The translations under genes were made by a program, and so were the position numbers. Shown one piece after another: positions 2,961 to 13,238 of a DNA stretch of 64,000 bases; the stretch's first letter is position 1; each line of letters starts with the position of its first letter. Origin of the DNA: Leifsonia shinshuensis. GTDB taxonomy: Bacteria; Actinomycetota; Actinomycetes; Actinomycetales; Microbacteriaceae. The notes below the pieces were generated by a model that was not told the origin of the DNA, searched no databases, and was given only the letters and a program-made list of their open reading frames with translations. The stretch covers positions 248,001 through 312,000 of the forward strand of contig NZ_JAHHZQ010000003.1 in the NCBI RefSeq assembly GCF_022606355.1. The letters run 5' to 3'.

Positions 2961-3896
2961 GTGACCGATTACCCGCTGATGTCGCGGCTCGATCTGAACC
3001 TCCTGATCGCGCTGGACGCCCTGCTCACCGAGCGCAGCGTGACCCGCGCGGCCGAGCGTCTGCGCCTCAGCCAGCCGGCCCTGAGCGCCTCCCTCTCGCG
3101 GTTGCGCATCCATTTCGGCGACCCGATCCTGGCCCGCCGCGGCAACACCTACGAGCTGACGCCGTTGGCGCTGCGGCTGGCCGACCACACCACGATCGCG
3201 CTGGACGCCGCCCGCCGCGTGTTCGAGAGCCAAGCCACCTGGGACCCCTCCGAGTCGGTGCGCCAGTTCTCGATCTACGGTTCGGACTACGGCTTCACGA
3301 CCATCGGCCGCACCGTCTCTGAACTGGCCGCCGCGCAGGCTCCCGGCGTGCACTTCCGGTTCATGCTGCACAACCCGACGGTGGTCGAGGACGCGACCAA
3401 CCGGCTGCGTTCGGTGGACGGCATGGTCATCCCGCACGGCTTCCTCACCGAGCTGCCGTTCGTCGACCTCTGGCACGACGATTGGGTCGCGATCGTCGCG
3501 GAGGACAACGACGAGGTCGGAGACGCGCTGTCGCGCGAGGAGATGTCGAAGCTGCCCTGGGTCATGAACTACCAGTCGCGCTCGGCCTTCACCTCCGCCG
3601 AGCGCCAGGTGCAGCAGCTCGGCATCGAGCCCAACGTGGAGGTCGTGGTCGAGAGCTTCCTGGCCATCCCGCACTTCATCGCGGGCACCCGCCGGGTCGG
3701 GATCATCCACCGTGCCCTGGTGCCGCTCGCCCAGCGCGCCGGGGCGGTGCGCGTGGTCGGCCTCCCGTTCGCCCCGACGCCGATCGTCAACGCGCTGTGG
3801 TGGCACCCGGTGCACACGCACGACCCCGAGCACACGTGGATGCGCGGCCTCTTCGAGGAGGCCGGCCGCATCGTCGCCGCGGGCGAGCACACCTAG
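2961..3896 (+). CDS. LysR-family transcriptional regulator
   Basis: A 311-residue regulator. Residues 1-65 hold the winged helix-turn-helix typical of the family (LDLNLLIALDALLTERSVT, then a recognition helix in SQPALSASLSRLR). An effector-binding domain of two alpha/beta lobes follows. The GTG at 2961 is preceded by AGGAAGGG; ATG 2979 is the alternative. Divergence from the sugar ABC operon and the palindrome in between suggest it controls that operon and itself. LysR control of a CUT1 sugar transporter is less common than LacI or ROK control. The gene ends in a family A hairpin repeat. Confidence 0.92.
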   Translation: MTDYPLMSRLDLNLLIALDALLTERSVTRAAERLRLSQPALSASLSRLRIHFGDPILARRGNTYELTPLALRLADHTTIALDAARRVFESQATWDPSESVRQFSIYGSDYGFTTIGRTVSELAAAQAPGVHFRFMLHNPTVVEDATNRLRSVDGMVIPHGFLTELPFVDLWHDDWVAIVAEDNDEVGDALSREEMSKLPWVMNYQSRSAFTSAERQVQQLGIEPNVEVVVESFLAIPHFIAGTRRVGIIHRALVPLAQRAGAVRVVGLPFAPTPIVNALWWHPVHTHDPEHTWMRGLFEEAGRIVAAGEHT

Positions 3897-3983: not shown

Positions 3984-4898
3984 TCACCAGCGGGCGGCGA
4001 TCCAGGCGACGACCGCGGCGAGCGTGCGCGCCGCGCCGAGGTGCGACGGCTCGTTGATGTGGGCGTGATCGGCGGCGGGTTCGACGTGGAGGGTGCTGTC
4101 GCGTCCGGCGGCCGTGAGCCGGGCGGCGAACGCCTCGCCCGACGGGCGCAGGGCATCCTGCTCGCAGACCACCACGAGGGTCGGCGGGAAGCCGCCGACG
4201 GAGCCGAGGCCCGGGAAGGCGTGCGGGTCGAGCAGAGCCGCCGGCGATCCGCCGTAGTTCACCGACAGCTGCGCGAACGGCGACTCCGGGTCCGGCGTCG
4301 TGCCGGGTCGAGCGCCGTCCGGGTCGAGCGCCGGGTAGACGAGCACGAGCCCGGCGGGCACTGCCGCCCCTGCGTCCCGGAGCCGCGCCACGACGCCCGC
4401 GGTGAGGTTCCCTCCCGCGCTCGCGCCCCCAAGCAGCAGGGCGCCCGGCTCGACGCCCAGCAGCTCGGCACTGTTCGCCCTGGCGTACCTCCACCCGGCG
4501 AGCACGTCGTCCGACGGCGCAGGGAAGTGCACGTCGCCGAGGCACTTGACGTAGTCGACGGCGAGCACCGGGATGCCACGCGCCGCGAGTTCCAGTGCCA
4601 CCCAGTTCGACTCCGGCATGTCGAGGTGGCCGCCGATGAAGGCACCTCCGTGCACCCACACCAGTGCCGCGCCCGCGTGGGCGACCGTGTCGTCGCGGTA
4701 CAGCCGGGCCGGCTGCGGGCCGCTCGGCGCCTCGACGATGAGGTCGCGTGTTCGGACGTGCGCCAGACGCGGGAACCGCCTCCGCAGCGATGCCGTGTCG
4801 ATGTCGGGCCGCGGATCCGCCGGCTCGCCGTGCTCGCGCAGCCACGCCAGCGCCTCCGGCAGCGGCAGGGCGCGGAGGTCTGGCTGCGTGTCTGTCAT
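3984..4898 (-). CDS. Alpha/beta hydrolase of the hormone-sensitive-lipase family
   Basis: A 304-residue cytoplasmic carboxylesterase-type hydrolase. The HSL oxyanion motif HGGAF is at 83-87, nucleophile Ser160 is in GASAGG, Asp248 is in CEQDALRP, and the catalytic His is 278 or 280 in ADHAHINEP. The start is the ATG at 4898; the open frame continues upstream, but it overlaps the deglycosidase gene. It is the last gene of the C-glycoside operon, five bases after the fused deglycosidase. In that context it may remove acyl groups from glycosides or aglycones. This is inference from position. Confidence 0.9.
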   Translation of the reverse strand: MTDTQPDLRALPLPEALAWLREHGEPADPRPDIDTASLRRRFPRLAHVRTRDLIVEAPSGPQPARLYRDDTVAHAGAALVWVHGGAFIGGHLDMPESNWVALELAARGIPVLAVDYVKCLGDVHFPAPSDDVLAGWRYARANSAELLGVEPGALLLGGASAGGNLTAGVVARLRDAGAAVPAGLVLVYPALDPDGARPGTTPDPESPFAQLSVNYGGSPAALLDPHAFPGLGSVGGFPPTLVVVCEQDALRPSGEAFAARLTAAGRDSTLHVEPAADHAHINEPSHLGAARTLAAVVAWIAARW

Positions 4899-4903
4899 GG
4901 ACC

Positions 4904-6385
4904 CTACCGCCCGGCGGTCTGCAGCGACCGCATGCTCGCCCGGATGAGGTCGTGCTGCTTGCGCACGAGCAGGAGCGGGTCGACCTCCCCCAGCTCGGCG
5001 AACGCGTGCCCCTCCCACTCGCTCGACCAGTAGCCGCGGTAGCCGCCCTCGACGAACACCCGCACGAGCTCCGGGTAGTCGATCGCGGCTTCCTGTCCGT
5101 TCTCGTCGATGTCGTAGAACTTGGCGTGCACGTGCTGGATCTGCGGCATGATGTCCGCCCACTCGCGCGGGTCGACGTGGCCGTGCATGTTGAAGGCCAG
5201 GTGGGCGAAGGCGCCGAGGCGGCCCGGGTCGAAACCGCGGCTGTCGAGGTAGCCGATGAACTCCTGCTGGCGCTCGCGCATCGACGCGTCGGTCGCCCAG
5301 ATCTCCTGCAGCCGTTGCACCTCCTCGTCGCCCAGGCCGGCACGGCGCACGGCACGCAGCAGCGTCGGCGACATGCTGTGCATGGTCGAGGAGAAGTCGG
5401 CGACGAAGCCGAGCAAGGGCGAGTCGAGCTCGGCGTAGACGTCGCGCACCTTGAGGATCTCGGGTGAGTTCGGTCCCATCGGCGCGTGGATCTCGTACGC
5501 GAGCTTCAGATCCAGGTCTTCTGCGACGGGCAGGAGGCGACGCAGCAGCTCCGGCTTGGCCGACTGGATGCGCACCAGCGGGAACCCCAGCTTCGCGGCA
5601 CCCCGGAACAGCAGCTCGCTGACCTCGAACTCCTCGTCGGGCGTCATGTCGCGGTCGCGGCGCTTGCCCATGTCGAGGTTGGCACCGAACGAGCTGGCGT
5701 CGAAGCCGTGCCGGTCGAAGGCCTCCCGCCAGGTCGCGACGAACGCGTCGGAGACGACCGGGTAGGTCGGCAGCACCTGCGAGGCCACGATCTCGATGCC
5801 CGGGCCGATGCCGAGCTCGGCCACGCGATCCAGGAGGCCGTCGAAGTCTAACCAGCCGGCGCGGAACTCCGCACTGGCCGAATACAGCGTCAGCCCGAGC
5901 CTGAACGGGTCCGCGTCGGTCGCCTCCGGAGCCGGCGGCACATCGGAGACGAGCGCGGGCGCCGGCGCGTCATGGTCGGTCGCGGTGAGCGTCAGTCGCT
6001 GGTGCACGACGTTCGGCACGTACAGGCCGGGGCCGCCGTCCTCTCCCGGCTTGATCTGCATGTACGGCAGCCGCAGCTCGCCGTGCAGCTCGACCTCGTG
6101 CGTCTCGCCCAGCTCCACGACCAGCTCACGCCGCACGATCAGCAGGGGGTGCGACTGCAGGTACCAGAGCACGTCGCTCTGCTGCGGGAGGTCGGCGATC
6201 GGGTAGCGCACGCCGTCGAGTTCGAAGGCGAGGTCCTCCTCCGGCACCTCGACTCCGTCGAAGGTCAGCCGGAGCGTCGTCACCGACGACAGCCACAGGC
6301 TGCGGTACCAGGGGATGGTGAGGGCGAGAGCGACGCCCTCCGGGTGGACGCGCAGGCTCGCGTCGTCGATGAGTCCGTTGGGCAT
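4904..6385 (-). CDS. Single-chain C-glycoside deglycosidase-like protein (beta domain fused to TIM-barrel alpha domain)
   Basis: A 493-residue protein. Residues ~1-150 match the small beta subunit encoded at 7319-7735: a beta-sandwich DUF6379-type domain containing an IPWYRSLWLS segment comparable to SPYYRGLWGN. Residues ~165-493 are a sugar-phosphate isomerase/epimerase TIM barrel like the alpha subunit at 6387-7322. Barrel metal ligands are recognisable by alignment: Glu in AYEIHAP, Asp in VADFSS, His in HVHAKFYDID and Glu in SSEWEGH. Known deglycosidases of this type cleave 3-oxo C-glycosides after C3 oxidation and are normally two proteins. The single chain suggests a paralogous module with different specificity. 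The ATG at 6385 is one base after the preceding stop. Confidence 0.75.
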   Translation of the reverse strand: MPNGLIDDASLRVHPEGVALALTIPWYRSLWLSSVTTLRLTFDGVEVPEEDLAFELDGVRYPIADLPQQSDVLWYLQSHPLLIVRRELVVELGETHEVELHGELRLPYMQIKPGEDGGPGLYVPNVVHQRLTLTATDHDAPAPALVSDVPPAPEATDADPFRLGLTLYSASAEFRAGWLDFDGLLDRVAELGIGPGIEIVASQVLPTYPVVSDAFVATWREAFDRHGFDASSFGANLDMGKRRDRDMTPDEEFEVSELLFRGAAKLGFPLVRIQSAKPELLRRLLPVAEDLDLKLAYEIHAPMGPNSPEILKVRDVYAELDSPLLGFVADFSSTMHSMSPTLLRAVRRAGLGDEEVQRLQEIWATDASMRERQQEFIGYLDSRGFDPGRLGAFAHLAFNMHGHVDPREWADIMPQIQHVHAKFYDIDENGQEAAIDYPELVRVFVEGGYRGYWSSEWEGHAFAELGEVDPLLLVRKQHDLIRASMRSLQTAGR

Positions 6386-6386
6386 G

Positions 6387-7322
6387 TCAGTTCCTGTCTG
6401 CGAGCGCCGCGGGCGCGGACGCGGTGGCCGCACGCTCGGCGGCGATGGATCGGATGAGGGCGTGCTGCCGGCGAAGCTGGTCGGACGCGCGGTAGGGCTC
6501 GTGGTGGCCCTCGTACTCGCTCGACAGCCAGCCGGTATAGCAGGCGTCGACGACGACGTCGACGATCTCCCGCCACGGGATGTAGTGGTCGACCAGCTCG
6601 TCGTCCACCTCGTAGAACTTGGCCTGGAAGTACACGGTGTGCTCCATCACGTCGGCCAAGTCGGACACCGGCACGAACGGCACGTCCGGCGGCATCGCTC
6701 CCCCGTCGCCCATCCGGAAGGCGGCGCTTCCGCCGCGCCGCTGATAGCGCTGCACGTCGAAGACGCCGGTGTCGATCAGGAGGCCGAACTGCGAGGTGCC
6801 GGTGCGCTCCTTGAACTCCAGGTACTCCTCGACCACCGGGGACTTGATGACCGTCGGCCAGTGGATCTCGGGGCAGATGACGATGCCGAGCTCCTCCGCG
6901 AGCTCGAGGTTGCGCTCCACGGCCTCCTGCCAGATCGGGTCGACCCGGAGGTCGCCGGAGATCACGCCGATCTTCGGCCGCACGAACGAGAAGCCGAGCC
7001 GGCCGGCCAGACGCAGGTCGAGTTCGAGCTGGGCGGCTCCCTCGACGGCCGTCATCGTTCGGCCGGGGAACCGCCGGGTGTCGATCCACGAGCCGTAGAG
7101 GGTCGGCGTGAGCCCGAGGCGCTCGTTGCGGGCGAACCAGGCGTCGATCCAGGCGCTGGAGGGGTTCGGGTAGTCCGCGATGTGGCCCTCGCCGAGGATC
7201 TCGAGCCCGGTGGCCCCGAGGTCCGCGACGTCCTCGATGCAGTCCTCGACCGTCATCGTGACGCCGATGTCCTCGGTGTAGCTGTACAGGGAGACGCCCA
7301 GGCCGAACGGAAGCGTGCTCAT
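6387..7322 (-). CDS. C-glycoside deglycosidase alpha subunit-like (sugar phosphate isomerase/epimerase fold)
   Basis: A 311-residue TIM-barrel protein of the AP-endonuclease/xylose-isomerase superfamily. Likely metal ligands are Glu152 (CPEIHWP), Asp184 (LLIDTG), the YFQAKFYEVD strand near 233 and Glu269 (SSEYEGHH). It overlaps the beta-subunit stop by ATGA. The gene order oxidoreductase, beta, alpha matches the CarA/CarC/CarB system described for actinobacterial C-glycoside breakdown, where the alpha-beta complex splits the C-C bond of 3-keto-C-glycosides. The assignment rests on fold, neighbours and the DUF6379 partner. Another role in 3-keto-sugar chemistry is the main alternative. Confidence 0.75.
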   Translation of the reverse strand: MSTLPFGLGVSLYSYTEDIGVTMTVEDCIEDVADLGATGLEILGEGHIADYPNPSSAWIDAWFARNERLGLTPTLYGSWIDTRRFPGRTMTAVEGAAQLELDLRLAGRLGFSFVRPKIGVISGDLRVDPIWQEAVERNLELAEELGIVICPEIHWPTVIKSPVVEEYLEFKERTGTSQFGLLIDTGVFDVQRYQRRGGSAAFRMGDGGAMPPDVPFVPVSDLADVMEHTVYFQAKFYEVDDELVDHYIPWREIVDVVVDACYTGWLSSEYEGHHEPYRASDQLRRQHALIRSIAAERAATASAPAALADRN

Positions 7323-7735
7323 CGGACGATCACCGCCTTCCGGCTGGTTGTCCAGATCGAGGGCTGGAGCTCCTCGGGGATGTACGACATGCGCAGCCGC
7401 AGCTCGAGCGTCACGTCGTGGATGCCGCGGGCCAGGCCGCCGGGCTTCGGAACGGTGAGCACGGCCGGCGCGTCCATCGGCCAGCGCGCGTCGGGCGATC
7501 GCTGCAGTCCGTCGAAGGTGTAGTCCGTCGCACCGGATGGACCGGCCGGCAACGTCCAGACGATGTCGTCCCCGCCGAACACCTCCCCGTCGACGGTCAC
7601 CGTCGGCTTCTCGATCAGGTTGCCCCAGAGCCCGCGATAGTACGGGCTCCGCACGCGCAGCTGGAACCCCGTGGGGGCGTCATCCGGCCCGACGTTGCGG
7701 AACCCGGCAGCCTGGATCAGCTGTTCTTCGAGCAT
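7319..7735 (-). CDS. C-glycoside deglycosidase beta subunit-like (DUF6379)
   Basis: A 138-residue all-beta protein without signal peptide. The pattern LRVRSPYYRGLWGN...PTVTVDG...WTLP, with a C-terminal LELRLRMSYIPEEL, is that of the small deglycosidase subunit (DUF6379), which forms a complex with the TIM-barrel subunit and completes its active site. Its coding end overlaps the alpha subunit start by four bases, as expected for subunits made in equal amounts. It lies 13 bp after the GMC oxidoreductase gene. The similarity to the first 150 residues of the product of 4904-6385 supports a shared origin. Confidence 0.75.
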   Translation of the reverse strand: MLEEQLIQAAGFRNVGPDDAPTGFQLRVRSPYYRGLWGNLIEKPTVTVDGEVFGGDDIVWTLPAGPSGATDYTFDGLQRSPDARWPMDAPAVLTVPKPGGLARGIHDVTLELRLRMSYIPEELQPSIWTTSRKAVIVR

Positions 7736-7748
7736 GTCGTCCTTGCCT

Positions 7749-9347
7749 TCAGTTGGTTCGTCCGGCGGCCTCGGGCACCGCGATCAACCTCCGCGCCGCC
7801 TCACGCGCGCCGCGCACGGCGATCGCGACGCTCATCAACGTGGGGTTCATCGTGGTCGCCGTCGGGATGAGCGCGTTGCCGCCGACGACGAGGTTGTCGT
7901 AGCCCCACACGCGTGAGTACGGGTCGGCCACCGAGGTGCCGTCGTCCTCCGCGCCGAGCCGCATGGTGCCCTGGTAGTGGAGGCTCGAGCCGTTCGGCAG
8001 CAGTCGCGGCTCGGCGACGAAGGTGCCGAGCGCGCTCCCGGCTCGGCGCAGGCGCTCCGTGGCCTCCGCGATCTCGGCCTGCTCGGCGTCGGTGAGCCCG
8101 TAGGCGATGGTGAAGTTCGGGAAGCCGCGGTAGTCGAGCTCGTCGTCGTCGAAGGTGACGGCGTCGTCGAAGCGCGGTCGCTTGCGCATCCCGTAGCCCA
8201 TGTTGACGTAACCCCAGCGGTTGCCGGCCGCCGGGTGCCCCGGGTCGAGCTGGAAGGGCGGGTTCTCCGCGTACATCACCTGCAGCGAGAACGGGTGGTC
8301 CGGCTCCGAGAACGGGATGCGGTTCACGGCCGCGACCGGGTCGACCGGGTTCGTCGCACGGCGGGCGAGCTCGTGGTCGAGCTGCTCCTCCGTCGCGAAC
8401 CGGCCCATGCTCGCGGCGTCGAGGGCGACCGTCGAGATGACCACCGGGTGCTCGGTGAGGTAGTGGCCGAGCGCCCGCGGCCGGATGCCCGACGCCCACA
8501 GCAGCTGCGGCGAGCGGAAGGCGTCGGCGGCCACGACGACGAGGTCGGCCTCCACCGGGTAGACCTCGTGACTGCGGAGGTCCTCGACGGTGACACCGGT
8601 GACGCGCCCGTCCGTGTGGTCGACACGGCGCACCAGAGACAGGTCGCGCAGTTCGAAGCGCTCGGCGAGCGGGTTCTCGGGGTCGAGCAGCGGTCCGAGC
8701 ACGACATCGGCGCCCGCCCAGCGCATCGTGCCGTCGGGCTGCGGGTCGCCGGACACCGGCAGGGTGCTCGGCCCGAACCCTTCGGGCAGCTCGCCGCCGA
8801 ACTCCTCGGCCAGCAGCGACCGGATGGCCGACCCGATCTCGGAGTCGGCGAACGCGGCCGTCTGCACGTGCAGCAGCCGCGAGGCCTCGGCGATGAGTTC
8901 CTCCCACTCGGCGTCGGCGATGAACGGGATGCGCTCGCTGAACGACGGGCTGGGCGTCGCGCACGTCCAGTGCGCGCCCATGCCGCCCACGTTGGTGGAG
9001 GCCGCGGCGGCCGGGAACGTCGGCGCATGCGCGGAGCCCACGCCGCCGAAGTCGAGCAGGTGAGTTCCGCCGCGCGCGGTGAACATGCCCTCCACGACCA
9101 CCGCCGACGGGATGCCGAGCGACTCGCGGAACGAGCCGGCTTGCGGACCCTGCGACCGCTCGCGCGCCCGCTCCTTCTCCTCCGGGTCGGGGATGTTGCG
9201 GACGTTCTCGCCGGCGATGGCGGTCAGCTGGGGGCCGGCCTCCAGCATCACAGCCCGCGCGTCGGGCACGGCCTCCAGCAGCAGTCGTGCGTACGCTGAG
9301 CCGATCGGGCCGCTGCCGACGATGGCGATGGTAGGGGTGGTGTTCAT
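7749..9347 (-). CDS. GMC-family FAD oxidoreductase, probable C3 oxidase/dehydrogenase of (C-)glycosides
   Basis: A 532-residue flavoprotein. The dinucleotide-binding GSGPIGS is at residues 11-17, followed by a NVGGMGAHWTCATP segment of the pyranose-oxidase branch. Catalytic His457 is in HYQGTMRLG, with Asn in NALIPTATTMNPT near 491-501. The ATG at 9347 has AGGAG upstream; an open frame further upstream is unrelated sequence. Placed directly before the deglycosidase subunits, it resembles CarA-type enzymes that oxidise the sugar C3 hydroxyl of C-glycosides so that the deglycosidase can cleave. The substrate is inferred from context. Confidence 0.82.
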   Translation of the reverse strand: MNTTPTIAIVGSGPIGSAYARLLLEAVPDARAVMLEAGPQLTAIAGENVRNIPDPEEKERARERSQGPQAGSFRESLGIPSAVVVEGMFTARGGTHLLDFGGVGSAHAPTFPAAAASTNVGGMGAHWTCATPSPSFSERIPFIADAEWEELIAEASRLLHVQTAAFADSEIGSAIRSLLAEEFGGELPEGFGPSTLPVSGDPQPDGTMRWAGADVVLGPLLDPENPLAERFELRDLSLVRRVDHTDGRVTGVTVEDLRSHEVYPVEADLVVVAADAFRSPQLLWASGIRPRALGHYLTEHPVVISTVALDAASMGRFATEEQLDHELARRATNPVDPVAAVNRIPFSEPDHPFSLQVMYAENPPFQLDPGHPAAGNRWGYVNMGYGMRKRPRFDDAVTFDDDELDYRGFPNFTIAYGLTDAEQAEIAEATERLRRAGSALGTFVAEPRLLPNGSSLHYQGTMRLGAEDDGTSVADPYSRVWGYDNLVVGGNALIPTATTMNPTLMSVAIAVRGAREAARRLIAVPEAAGRTN

Positions 9348-11027: not shown

Positions 11028-11078
11028 TTCGTCACGAATGTCGAGATTCGTGCCACGAATGTCGCGATTCGTCACGAA
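11028..11078. repeat. Family B repeat: triplet of TTCGT-ACGAA palindromes
   Basis: Three palindromes, TTCGTCACGAA (11028-11038), TTCGTGCCACGAA (11047-11059) and TTCGTCACGAA (11068-11078), have centres exactly 20 bp apart. The third overlaps the end of ddl and supplies its last codons and stop. The same triplet occurs twice in the array at 20621-20960 and in degenerate form at 16061-16111. Confidence 0.85.
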
Positions 11079-12064
11079 TGTCGGGCAGCACCGGCGGACA
11101 AGACGGCGGTGGGCAGGGCCGCGGCGAGCAGCGCGGCGACGAGGCCGGGGTAGTCGAGCCCCTTCGCGGCGAACATCCGCGGCACCTGGGACTGCTCCGT
11201 GAACCCCGGCGTCGTGTTCACTTCGTTCAGCACGACGCCCTCGGCTGTCACGAAGAAGTCGAAGCGGGCGACGCCCGCGCAGCCGAGCGTGTCGTAGAGT
11301 GCGCGGGCCGCGCCCTCGATGGCGGCGTGCTCGGCGGCGGTCACGCGCGCGGGCAGCGTGAACGACGCCGACCCGTCGTACTTCTGCTCGCGGTCGAAGA
11401 CCGCCCCGTCGGCCACCCCGATCTCGAGGGTCGAGCCGGCGCGCAGGGCGCCGTCGCGGTCCCGGAACAGGGCGATGTCCACCTCGCGGCCCGAGACGAA
11501 CGCCTCGATCAGCGCCGTGCCTCCCGCCGCGCGCGCCGTTGCGACGGCGGCCGAGAGCTGCCCGGCCTCCCTGACCACCGAGACCCCGTTGCTCGATCCC
11601 CCGGGCGTCGGCTTCACGACGAACGGTGGTTCGAGGCGGAGGTGCGCGCTGTCGAACCGGTCGTCGACGAGCACGCCGGGAGCGGTGGGGATGCCGAGCT
11701 CCTCCGCCACGAGCTTCGTGAGCCACTTGTCCATGCCGAGCGCTCCGGCGCGCACCGGGGAGCCGACGAACGGCACGCCCGTGAGGCGCAGCAGCCCGGC
11801 GATCGCGCCGTCCTCGCCGTCCACGCCGTGCAGCACGGGGAAGGCCACGTCGCACGATGAGAGGACCGTGATCGCGTGCGCCGCGGCCACCGGGCCGTCG
11901 GCGAGCTGCCAGCCACCCCGCCGGTCGATCGTCAGCGGGACGGCGGTCAGGCCGAGGGCGCGGACCGCACGCACGACGGCGGCCGCCGAGGCGAGCGACA
12001 CGTCGTGCTCGTCGTTGGCACCGCCGCCGATCACGGCGACGCGGCGGATCGTCGACTCAGGCAC
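11072..12064 (-). CDS. ddl: D-alanine--D-alanine ligase
   Basis: A 330-residue ATP-grasp ligase joining two D-Ala for the peptidoglycan precursor. The family marks are EHDVSLASA near residue 19, PVLHGVDGEDG near 77, the ATP-grasp lysine in PPFVVKPTPGGSSNG, and the Mg-binding LNEVNTTPGFTEQS at the C-terminal side. In the omega-loop, where ligases for other depsipeptides differ, it keeps a Lys-Tyr pair (REQKYDG), which favours D-Ala as second substrate, although the usual YDY is replaced. It overlaps the alr stop by 8 bp. The last residues and stop come from a family B repeat. Confidence 0.88.
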   Translation of the reverse strand: MPESTIRRVAVIGGGANDEHDVSLASAAAVVRAVRALGLTAVPLTIDRRGGWQLADGPVAAAHAITVLSSCDVAFPVLHGVDGEDGAIAGLLRLTGVPFVGSPVRAGALGMDKWLTKLVAEELGIPTAPGVLVDDRFDSAHLRLEPPFVVKPTPGGSSNGVSVVREAGQLSAAVATARAAGGTALIEAFVSGREVDIALFRDRDGALRAGSTLEIGVADGAVFDREQKYDGSASFTLPARVTAAEHAAIEGAARALYDTLGCAGVARFDFFVTAEGVVLNEVNTTPGFTEQSQVPRMFAAKGLDYPGLVAALLAAALPTAVLSAGAARHS

Positions 12065-13238
12065 CGGCCGCCTCCCCGATGCACGCGGCGGGGGTGCCGT
12101 CCGCGGCGGCGGTGCCGGCCGCGGCGGCGGTCACCGTCGACCGGTGGATGCGCGCGACGCGGCTGCCGATCCGGGTGACGATCTCGTGCTCGATCGTCCC
12201 CGACCAGCCGGCCCATTCGGCGACGGTCGGCTCGCCGTGGTCGCCCGGGCCGAACACCGTGACCGTCTCCCCCGCCGTGAGCAGGTCGTCGCCGGTGTCG
12301 ACGACCAGCATGTCCATCGAGAACCGTCCGACGACGGGCCGGCGGCGGCCGCGCACCTGCACCTCGGCGCGCTCCGACGCCGCGCGCGGGAGGCCGTCGC
12401 CGTAGCCCACAGGCAGCAGCGCGAGATTCGTGCGCCGGTCGGCGACGTGCTCCAGTCCGTAGCCGATCCCGGTTCCCGCTGCGACCTCCCGGGAGCCCAC
12501 GACGGTCGTCGTCAGCGAGAGTGCCGGGCGCAACCGGTCGGACGTGCCGGAGGGATCGATCCCGAACAGGCCGGCGCCGATGCGGTGCAGCCCGAACCCG
12601 GAGCCGACGCCGGTCACGGTCGCCGCTGTCGCGGCCAGGTGGGCGACCGAGGGCGCCAGGCCGCGGCGCTGCGCCGTCCGCAGTGCGTTCGCGAAGACCA
12701 ACCGCTCTCGGGCGTTCTGCGGGTGATCAGGCCGGTCGGCGCACGACATGTGGCCCATGACCCCGACGACACGGACGCTCCCGAGCACCTCCAGCTCGCG
12801 CGCGACGCCGCAGAGAGCGGACCAATCGGAGGCGGGAGCGCCATCGCGCGCCATGCCGACGTCGATGTGCAGATGCACGCGGGCGCGCCGTCCCAGCGCC
12901 GCCGCTGCCCGGCCGACGGCGTGCAGCAGCCGGACGCTCTGCACGGCCAGGTCGATGTCCGCGACGACCGCGGCCGCGAGATCGGCGTCGACCGGATTGA
13001 GCCAGCTCAGGATCGGCACCCGCACCCCGGCCGCCCGCACGACGAGTGCTTCCTCGATGGAGGTGACGCCGATGGATGTCGCTCCCGCCGCGAGAACCGA
13101 GTGCGCGATCGAGCCGTGACCGAACGCGTCGGCTTTGAGCACCGCCATCAGGCGGCCTCCCGTGGCGGCGGCGAAGTAGGCGGCGTTCGAGCGGATGGCT
13201 TCGTCGTCGACGACGAGCTCAGAGGTCCACGACATCAT
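12057..13238 (-). CDS. alr: Alanine racemase (PLP fold type III)
   Basis: A 393-residue enzyme making D-Ala for the ligase downstream. The PLP lysine is Lys35 in AVLKADAFGHG, and the opposing catalytic Tyr is 260 in GIGYG; VGYGDGLPR and GRFSMDM follow. Two deviations stand out: Phe replaces the usual Tyr of KADAYGHG, and HLAATAA replaces the usual HxxNSAA phosphate-contact segment. It may thus be a divergent copy, perhaps with altered specificity. The C-terminus ends in an Ala/Thr-rich tail of ~25 residues. The two codons at 13233-13238 are both ATG. Confidence 0.85.
   Translation of the reverse strand: MMSWTSELVVDDEAIRSNAAYFAAATGGRLMAVLKADAFGHGSIAHSVLAAGATSIGVTSIEEALVVRAAGVRVPILSWLNPVDADLAAAVVADIDLAVQSVRLLHAVGRAAAALGRRARVHLHIDVGMARDGAPASDWSALCGVARELEVLGSVRVVGVMGHMSCADRPDHPQNARERLVFANALRTAQRRGLAPSVAHLAATAATVTGVGSGFGLHRIGAGLFGIDPSGTSDRLRPALSLTTTVVGSREVAAGTGIGYGLEHVADRRTNLALLPVGYGDGLPRAASERAEVQVRGRRRPVVGRFSMDMLVVDTGDDLLTAGETVTVFGPGDHGEPTVAEWAGWSGTIEHEIVTRIGSRVARIHRSTVTAAAAGTAAADGTPAACIGEAAGA

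Follow-up and report, generated by a model that had tools for sequence, protein, structure and literature searches.

The open reading frame at 4904-6385 on the minus strand of the analysed window, a 64,000-nucleotide stretch of Leifsonia shinshuensis DNA, very probably encodes a single-chain C-glycoside deglycosidase (CGD) of the AgCGD2 clade, the product of a beta gene joined in frame to the alpha gene downstream of it. Among its relatives, fused proteins fall into at least four distinct groups in the trees of both the alpha and the beta domains, and a single origin is rejected. We tentatively extend this to a broader reading, possible rather than probable, in which two-chain CGDs were repeatedly and independently converted into single chains with the beta domain first, and in which the products are not equivalent: adjoining fusions would differ in the position of the beta domain, in whether the active site forms in cis or between chains, and in the use of His or Gln at one metal-ligand position.

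The frame translates into 493 amino acids without an internal stop and is organized as follows:

4904-6385, minus strand: very probable single-chain beta-alpha CGD; 493 amino acids, ATG start, stop codon counted in
5972-6385, minus strand: beta domain of the CGDB/DUF6379 type, approximately residues 1-138 (Pfam, match to 7dnm_B, model)
5912-6016, minus strand: residues 124-158, which separate the two HMM envelopes
4919-5911, minus strand: alpha domain, a xylose isomerase-like TIM barrel, residues 159-489 (match to 7dnm_A)

The initial annotation had placed a beta-like domain before an alpha-like barrel, and database searches bore out both the assignment and the order of the two domains. In Pfam, the CGDB model matched residues 16-108 (49.2 bits, cut-off 27.6) and AP_endonuc_2 matched residues 186-486 of the same chain (36.1 bits, cut-off 31.1); in NCBIfam, no model matched the frame at E 0.001. 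Phmmer searches against the PDB aligned residues 160-485 without gaps to 7dnm_A, the alpha subunit of AgCGD2 (E 1.2e-126), and residues 3-138 to 7dnm_B, its beta subunit (E 1.1e-28). In the structural model, the stretch at residues 124-158 starts within a strand (121-134) and is mostly coil in its remainder. The inter-domain stretch measures 35 residues in 67 of the 75 rows (approximately 70 distinct genes after duplicates) of the lineage to which the window protein belongs, here lineage II. Assembly error and chance read-through were discarded as sources of the fusion, since the frame is common to 64 of 78 loci of other genomes and the gene shows purifying selection: in each of seven pairwise comparisons of the window gene with its relatives, dN/dS stays below 1 for the beta part, for the linker and for the alpha part. 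Judged by its sequence, the frame is a real and functional-looking single-chain CGD.

Alignment to AgCGD2 and, for the beta domain, to 7bvr_B located the residues expected in a CGD active site:

5012-5494, minus strand: span with the metal ligands and catalytic residues
5492-5494, minus strand: metal ligand E298 (AgCGD2 E147)
5396-5398, minus strand: metal ligand D330 (AgCGD2 D179)
5126-5128, minus strand: metal ligand H420 (AgCGD2 H269)
5120-5122, minus strand: metal ligand K422 (AgCGD2 K271)
5018-5020, minus strand: metal ligand E456 (AgCGD2 E305)
5486-5488, minus strand: catalytic base H300 (AgCGD2 H149)
5012-5014, minus strand: helper E458 (AgCGD2 E307)
6305-6307, minus strand: Tyr27 in the beta domain; its counterpart in the alignment is residue 39 of 7bvr_B, which is Tyr39beta of PuCGE

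The metal-ligand motifs are intact, as previously noted, and the two catalytic residues are present as well. All seven positions, whose roles in AgCGD2 are described in passages of PMC8563793, are identical in the window protein and in each of the 75 lineage II rows. The protein thus combines the features of a CGD, namely a TIM barrel with a metal site of one His, two Glu, one Asp and one Lys, a catalytic His and Glu, and a CGDB domain, the beta-sandwich partner by which CGDs shape the aglycone site, with its Tyr. The position of AgCGD2 His269 varies between lineages: it is His in 75 of 75 lineage II rows and Gln in all 64 rows of lineage I, the 8QRZ type, as well as in a separate alpha subunit encoded in the window.

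In the beta domain, Tyr27 and Gln110 are conserved by alignment. Exchange of Tyr39beta for Phe in PuCGE is reported to remove nearly all activity on C-glycosides and to lower that on O-glycosides just 2.4-fold (PMC10628242). The expectation that the N-terminal domain retains residues needed to complete the active site held for Tyr27, but not for the AgCGD2 beta contact Thr3, which has no equivalent in the window protein; an extrapolated alignment places Met1 there. In the alpha half, AgCGD2 Arg123 and Pro241 align with Gln and Ala, and the window beta loop between YMQI and YV is six residues longer than that of AgCGD2 (counted by eye). AgCGD2 acts on a C8-glucoside, and the authors of the same study tie a loop that is four residues longer in MiCGD, AgCGD1 and MtCGD to the use of C6-glucosides (both from parts of PMC8563793). 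Because of the altered aglycone contacts and the longer beta loop, a substrate specificity unlike that of AgCGD2 is plausible; the substrate may be a different one or a non-flavonoid compound.

The fusion has the following neighbors:

6387-7322, minus strand: alpha subunit, encoded by a gene of its own, of a second CGD; it belongs to the clade of unfused proteins that is sister to the 8QRZ lineage and has Gln at the His269 site
7319-7735, minus strand: separate beta subunit (CGDB) of the second CGD (Pfam); its stop overlaps the alpha start in ATGA
7749-9347, minus strand: GMC oxidoreductase, probable C-glycoside 3-oxidase (Pfam, PDB matches)
3984-4898, minus strand: alpha/beta hydrolase (Abhydrolase_3), directly downstream of the fusion (Pfam)
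2961-3896, plus strand: LysR-type regulator, on the strand opposite to the fusion (Pfam)

The unfused pair, whose presence next to the fusion agrees with the initial annotation, and the GMC gene are located upstream of the fusion on the same strand. The best PDB matches of the GMC protein are 8qve_A (E 5.8e-112) and 7qf8_A (E 1.4e-98), the latter of which we take to be the glycoside 3-oxidase PsG3Ox. In passages of PMC10646112, PsG3Ox is described beside CGD genes, and oxidases of this class are said to serve soil degraders of C-glycosides. The GMC enzyme would probably make the 3-keto substrate for the CGD. Its relatives are found in 24 of the 64 lineage II loci (flanks of up to 5 kb), those of the Abhydrolase_3 protein in 17/64 and those of the LysR-type regulator in 48/64.

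The window genome contains four CGD modules within approximately 20 kb. The first two are the fusion and the separate pair. The third, about 13 kb from the fusion, is a pair from the clade of the other A. globiformis pair, which is presumably of the AgCGD1/MiCGD type, and the fourth consists of an AgCGD2-type alpha subunit split from a beta subunit by a SnoaL-like gene. In their vicinity are a second GMC oxidase, two TIM-barrel genes, a GFO/IDH/MocA oxidoreductase, a GH106-like gene and a GH43 gene. The stretch just upstream of the window (L100; G000:C5:234000-248000) holds the two extra CGD modules, the second GMC oxidase and the GH43 and GH106-like genes, and, from its gene content, the combined region resembles an island for the catabolism of plant glycosides. 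At 11072-13238 (minus strand), the window also carries a D-Ala-D-Ala ligase family gene that overlaps an apparent alanine racemase gene (motif seen by eye); these are unrelated to CGDs.

Homology to characterized CGDs suggests the reaction, the metal and the formation of the active site by the beta and alpha parts of one chain. The GMC enzyme encoded upstream would oxidize the glucosyl group at C3. In the CGD, the TIM barrel would hold Mn2+ or a similar metal through E298, D330, H420, K422 and E456, and H300, aided by E458, would take a proton from C2, while Tyr27, together with further residues where the two domains meet, would hold and activate the aglycone. Beta-elimination would then free the aglycone and 2-hydroxy-3-keto-glucal. 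The window enzyme of this soil bacterium would probably remove carbon-bonded sugars from plant compounds in this way.

Several lines of evidence argue for the single-chain CGD: CGDB and AP_endonuc_2 both score above their Pfam cut-offs in one chain; the alpha half is 58% and the beta half 40% identical to AgCGD2, an assayed C8-deglycosidase; the seven active-site residues and Tyr27/Gln110 are kept; the model is confident; the GMC neighbor resembles C-glycoside 3-oxidases; and the frame is intact in most loci and has dN/dS below 1. Against it stand the loss of Thr3beta, the changes at Arg123 and Pro241, the longer beta loop and the presence of GMC relatives in just 24/64 lineage II loci. In addition, the whole chain does not superimpose on 8QRZ (17.7 Å), and the intrachain active site is therefore putative.

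The departure of the aglycone contacts from those of AgCGD2 also bears on a second reading, in which the protein acts as a lyase on 3-keto glycosides, with an O-glycoside or some other 3-keto sugar conjugate as its principal substrate in nature and with C-C cleavage absent or secondary. PuCGE is reported to cleave 3-keto O-glycosides too (PMC10628242), and substrates may be split among the four CGD modules. Nevertheless, the beta domain and Tyr27 are kept, the Tyr39 change in PuCGE affects C-glycosides far more than O-glycosides according to the same report, and by a wide margin the protein is most similar to a C-deglycosidase; we consider the lyase a realistic but minority possibility next to the single-chain CGD.

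The structure of the window protein was predicted with AlphaFold2 from an alignment with 55 further rows, which included fusions and separate halves, and yielded a model with a pLDDT of 94.4 and a pTM of 0.92. Superposition, which had been suggested as a check, matched the two halves of the model to the two chains of AgCGD2: the alpha half reached a TM score of 0.94 by target against 7dnm_A (VIA Z 42.5, rmsd 2.0, 336 aligned), and the N-terminal half folded like the known beta subunit, with a TM score of 0.88 by target against 7dnm_B. By their position, helices 340-399 of the model are probably the equivalent of the AgCGD2 lid. The arrangement of the halves is a different matter. Foldseek aligned the whole model, as one predicted monomer, to 8qrz_A over 507 columns and both domains with an rmsd of 17.7 Å, and VIA aligned only window residues 147-490 of this monomer to 8qrz_A. 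As a control, the 8QRZ sequence from locus L027 was modelled from a 45-row alignment and agreed with 8qrz_A to 1.4 Å over 433 residues (Z 53). The method is thus capable of recovering the 8QRZ geometry, and the placement of beta on alpha is predicted to differ between the two lineages. The 17.7 Å difference may reflect a different angle, a cis versus trans arrangement or an error of the model; AgCGD2 is reported to differ from PuCGD in angle (PMC8563793, in part). The lengths of the linkers, 32-41 residues in lineage II and 13-14 in the 8QRZ lineage, fit a different tethering.

These models bear on a trans arrangement, in which each beta domain would reach over to the active site of a neighboring chain in a homo-oligomer, the linker would act as a tether, and a single chain would not be the catalytic unit by itself. 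The beta placement in the model is unlike that in 8QRZ though each domain matches AgCGD2, and the control reproduced 8QRZ to 1.4 Å; one of the two lineages may thus use a different beta-alpha pairing. Known CGDs are described as ranging from alpha-beta to alpha4beta4 assemblies, yet AgCGD2, the closest solved relative, is a plain alpha-beta heterodimer (both from parts of PMC8563793), which suggests pairing in cis in the window lineage. We therefore regard pairing in trans as unlikely and tentatively favor an active site completed within one chain.

A search for the fused architecture, also proposed earlier, showed that beta-alpha fusions are not peculiar to the window: the fusion is not a one-off but a known architecture that is common among relatives. 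The 78 loci were retrieved with the fused window protein as query, and the resulting rate is biased because close relatives are over-represented; within this set, 64 loci carry the window-type fusion intact in a single frame. Nine carry an unfused beta-then-alpha sister pair instead, two (L081 and L082) have only the AgCGD2 type, that is, AgCGD2 itself or a near twin, and three lack an intact window-type fusion. In the last three, the beta and alpha parts lie in different frames (L063), the alpha part is broken (L075), or the match spans query residues 1-349 only, near the end of the stored stretch (L064). An 8QRZ-type fusion stands beside the lineage II fusion in 51 of the 78 loci (51/64 lineage II loci), and a separate pair, as in the window, in 5/64.

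Pfam model searches found CGDB in 12 of 150 Microbacteriaceae genomes, the window's own included, of which nine contain lineage II and six the 8QRZ-type fusion; at least five of the 12 genomes duplicate loci of the 78 set. Outside this family, copies were found in Demequina (L059), Pseudarthrobacter (L029) and Arthrobacter (L046), as well as on an Arthrobacter plasmid of 1 Mb. Matches were found for 22 plasmids, seven of which were examined: six carry separate genes (Croceicoccus, two Novosphingobium, Deinococcus, Niallia and Arthrobacter NicSoilB11), and the unannotated Arthrobacter StoSoilB13 plasmid carries both fusions (frames read by eye). Four stretches of viral contigs matched a pattern, and none of them encodes a relative. 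The all-contig scan detects close relatives only, and the family-model searches covered the window's own phylum. In the open-licence PMC literature, we found no account of natural CGD fusions.

For the phylogenetic analysis, 232 alpha domains were gathered, duplicates included (L102 equals L023, L103 equals L062, L104 equals L019, L108 equals L005 and L115 equals L012). In 143 of them, the alpha domain shares one frame with a beta domain, which comes first in every case. After four domains had been dropped, the remaining 228 were clustered at 85% identity into 75 representatives. The first alpha tree (75 rows) required six changes of the fused label, a count in which L026 appears as separate just because its contig begins inside the gene. 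A second tree of 70 rows, without L026 and four long branches, required five, as did the trees across the 5-95% bootstrap range. The beta tree comprised 62 rows, as seven representatives have no paired beta in the stretch and one beta is shared; it recovered the same groups and likewise required five changes (bootstrap range 4-6, with four forced by well supported branches). These counts refer to changes of label and not to their direction, gain or loss. When all fused rows were held as one clade, the topology was rejected in the alpha tree (lnL 818 lower, p-AU 2.1e-7), and in the beta tree the p-AU was 6.5e-7. The fused groups are:

Fused group I: the 8QRZ type; three members are separate, which implies one loss or a second gain within the group
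Fused group II: the window type; one clade with unfused AgCGD2 and the pairs of Geodermatophilus, Microbispora and Sinomonas (support 100/100 for the whole clade, 100/94 for the fused part)
Fused group III: L109 and L111; Gln stands at the position of the catalytic His and Gly at that of the Glu, and both sequences fall short of the Pfam CGDB cut-off
Fused group IV: a tandem of two in one genome (L093)

For groups II and III, the nearest neighbors are separate, which makes a gain of the fusion the simpler reading there. Among the nine unfused sisters of lineage II, six have overlapping beta and alpha genes and the other three a gap of 10-12 bases between them, which is a short step to fusion. 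Descent of the window-type fusion from the 8QRZ fusion through a single event and later losses would agree with the beta-then-alpha order of both, with their occurrence in one family and with their adjacency in 51/78 loci, an arrangement that tandem duplication of one fused gene would produce. Such descent is very improbable in view of the five label changes and the one-clade tests in both trees (p-AU 2.1e-7 with lnL 818 lower, and 6.5e-7), the strict division at the His269 site (His in 75/75 lineage II rows, Gln in 64/64 of lineage I) and the linkers of 32-41 against 13-14 residues. We thus retain separate fusion events for the two lineages.

Some of the sequences collected along the way have features of their own. 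A divergent CGD-like group of 10 rows retains the metal ligands but has Gln in place of the catalytic His and Gly in place of Glu307, and, from these replacements, possibly catalyzes another reaction. It includes the two fused members of group III (L109:11644-12996 and L111:7413-8828, both on the minus strand) and unfused members in L019, L081, L082, L102, L012 and L014. In L111, a Shine-Dalgarno-like GAGGAGG with an in-frame ATG after it lies in the linker of the fused frame (approximately 8388-8500, minus strand), which suggests that a separate alpha subunit might also be made and that the fusion is possibly recent. The tandem of L093 (97-3131, minus strand) consists of two different fused CGDs, with an upstream oxidoreductase that resembles GFO/IDH/MocA proteins by eye. 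Two further candidates, L096:2329-3861 and L099:626-2149 (both plus strand), were rejected as CGD fusions; they come from two genomes of the same phylum, show sub-threshold similarity to CGDB, and combine an HMG-CoA_red_N-like domain with URO-D, a barrel of the uroporphyrinogen decarboxylase family.

For the CGD enzyme class, these results are an extension and establish no new principle. A single chain has a built-in 1:1 stoichiometry, which follows from its architecture, and natural single-chain CGDs could help expression, engineering and the swapping of the halves of the aglycone site; a beta-subunit swap between two two-chain CGDs is reported to have failed (PMC8563793, in part). The repeated fusions also amount to a replicated natural experiment: several separate fusions are available together with the unfused relatives of every one, and fused and unfused forms occur within one genome. 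A 2025 review, in the part available to us, describes the order and timing of heterodimer-to-fusion transitions as in need of phylogenetic evidence (PMC12141560), which the CGD family can supply.

Among known CGDs, AgCGD2 (AgCarB2-C2 of Arthrobacter globiformis NBRC 12137; 7DNM/7DNN) is the closest solved relative of both halves of the window protein and belongs to the same clade in both trees. In contrast to the window protein, which is one chain with the beta domain first, AgCGD2 consists of two polypeptides encoded in alpha-then-beta order (L081) and forms an alpha-beta heterodimer (PMC8563793, in part); the window protein lacks its Thr3beta contact and has a beta loop by the aglycone site that is six residues longer. 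L081 also contains a second A. globiformis pair, presumably AgCGD1, which belongs to a distinct clade; this clade is also represented in the window genome (L100).

A counterpart in architecture is 8QRZ/8UN2, a natural single chain with a CGDB domain followed by a TIM barrel, as in the window. Foldseek lists it under the title "Microbacterium testaceum C-glucosyl deglycosidase (CGD), wild type", with a release date of 2025-04-23; in the open-licence PMC literature, we found no paper that describes it. The statement of the initial annotation that known enzymes of this type are complexes of separate alpha and beta polypeptides has thus been outdated since April 2025. In phmmer comparisons, the N-terminal part of 8qrz_A (435 residues) resembles the separate beta subunit of the window and its C-terminal part the separate alpha subunit, and 8QRZ is closer to this unfused pair than to the window fusion. 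It corresponds to a frame of L027 (Microbacterium testaceum NS220; 100% identity over 294 + 129 residues, 423 compared), where a window-type fusion follows immediately downstream of this frame. The two fusions differ in several respects: 8QRZ belongs to the other fused clade in both trees, has a linker of 13-14 instead of 32-41 residues, carries Gln at the metal-ligand position His269, is 24-29% identical to the window protein and is predicted to place its beta domain differently within the chain. What is new is therefore the separate fusion lineage, the repeated fusion and the frequent adjacency of the two lineages; the single-chain architecture itself is known from 8QRZ.

The other known CGDs compared here have separate subunits. 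MiCGD (CarBC), AgCGD1 and MtCGD from soil actinobacteria share the reaction class and the alpha-beta composition with the window protein, and MiCGD is reported to act after an FAD oxidase (PMC8563793 and PMC12724307, in part). PuCGD (DgpBC), EuCGD (DfgAB) and DaCGD (8QVC/8UMC) contain the same two domains and are 22-31% identical to the window alpha half. PuCGD and EuCGD conserve the metal-site residues and form alpha4beta4 assemblies according to passages of PMC8563793, and Tyr39beta of PuCGE corresponds to Tyr27 of the window protein.
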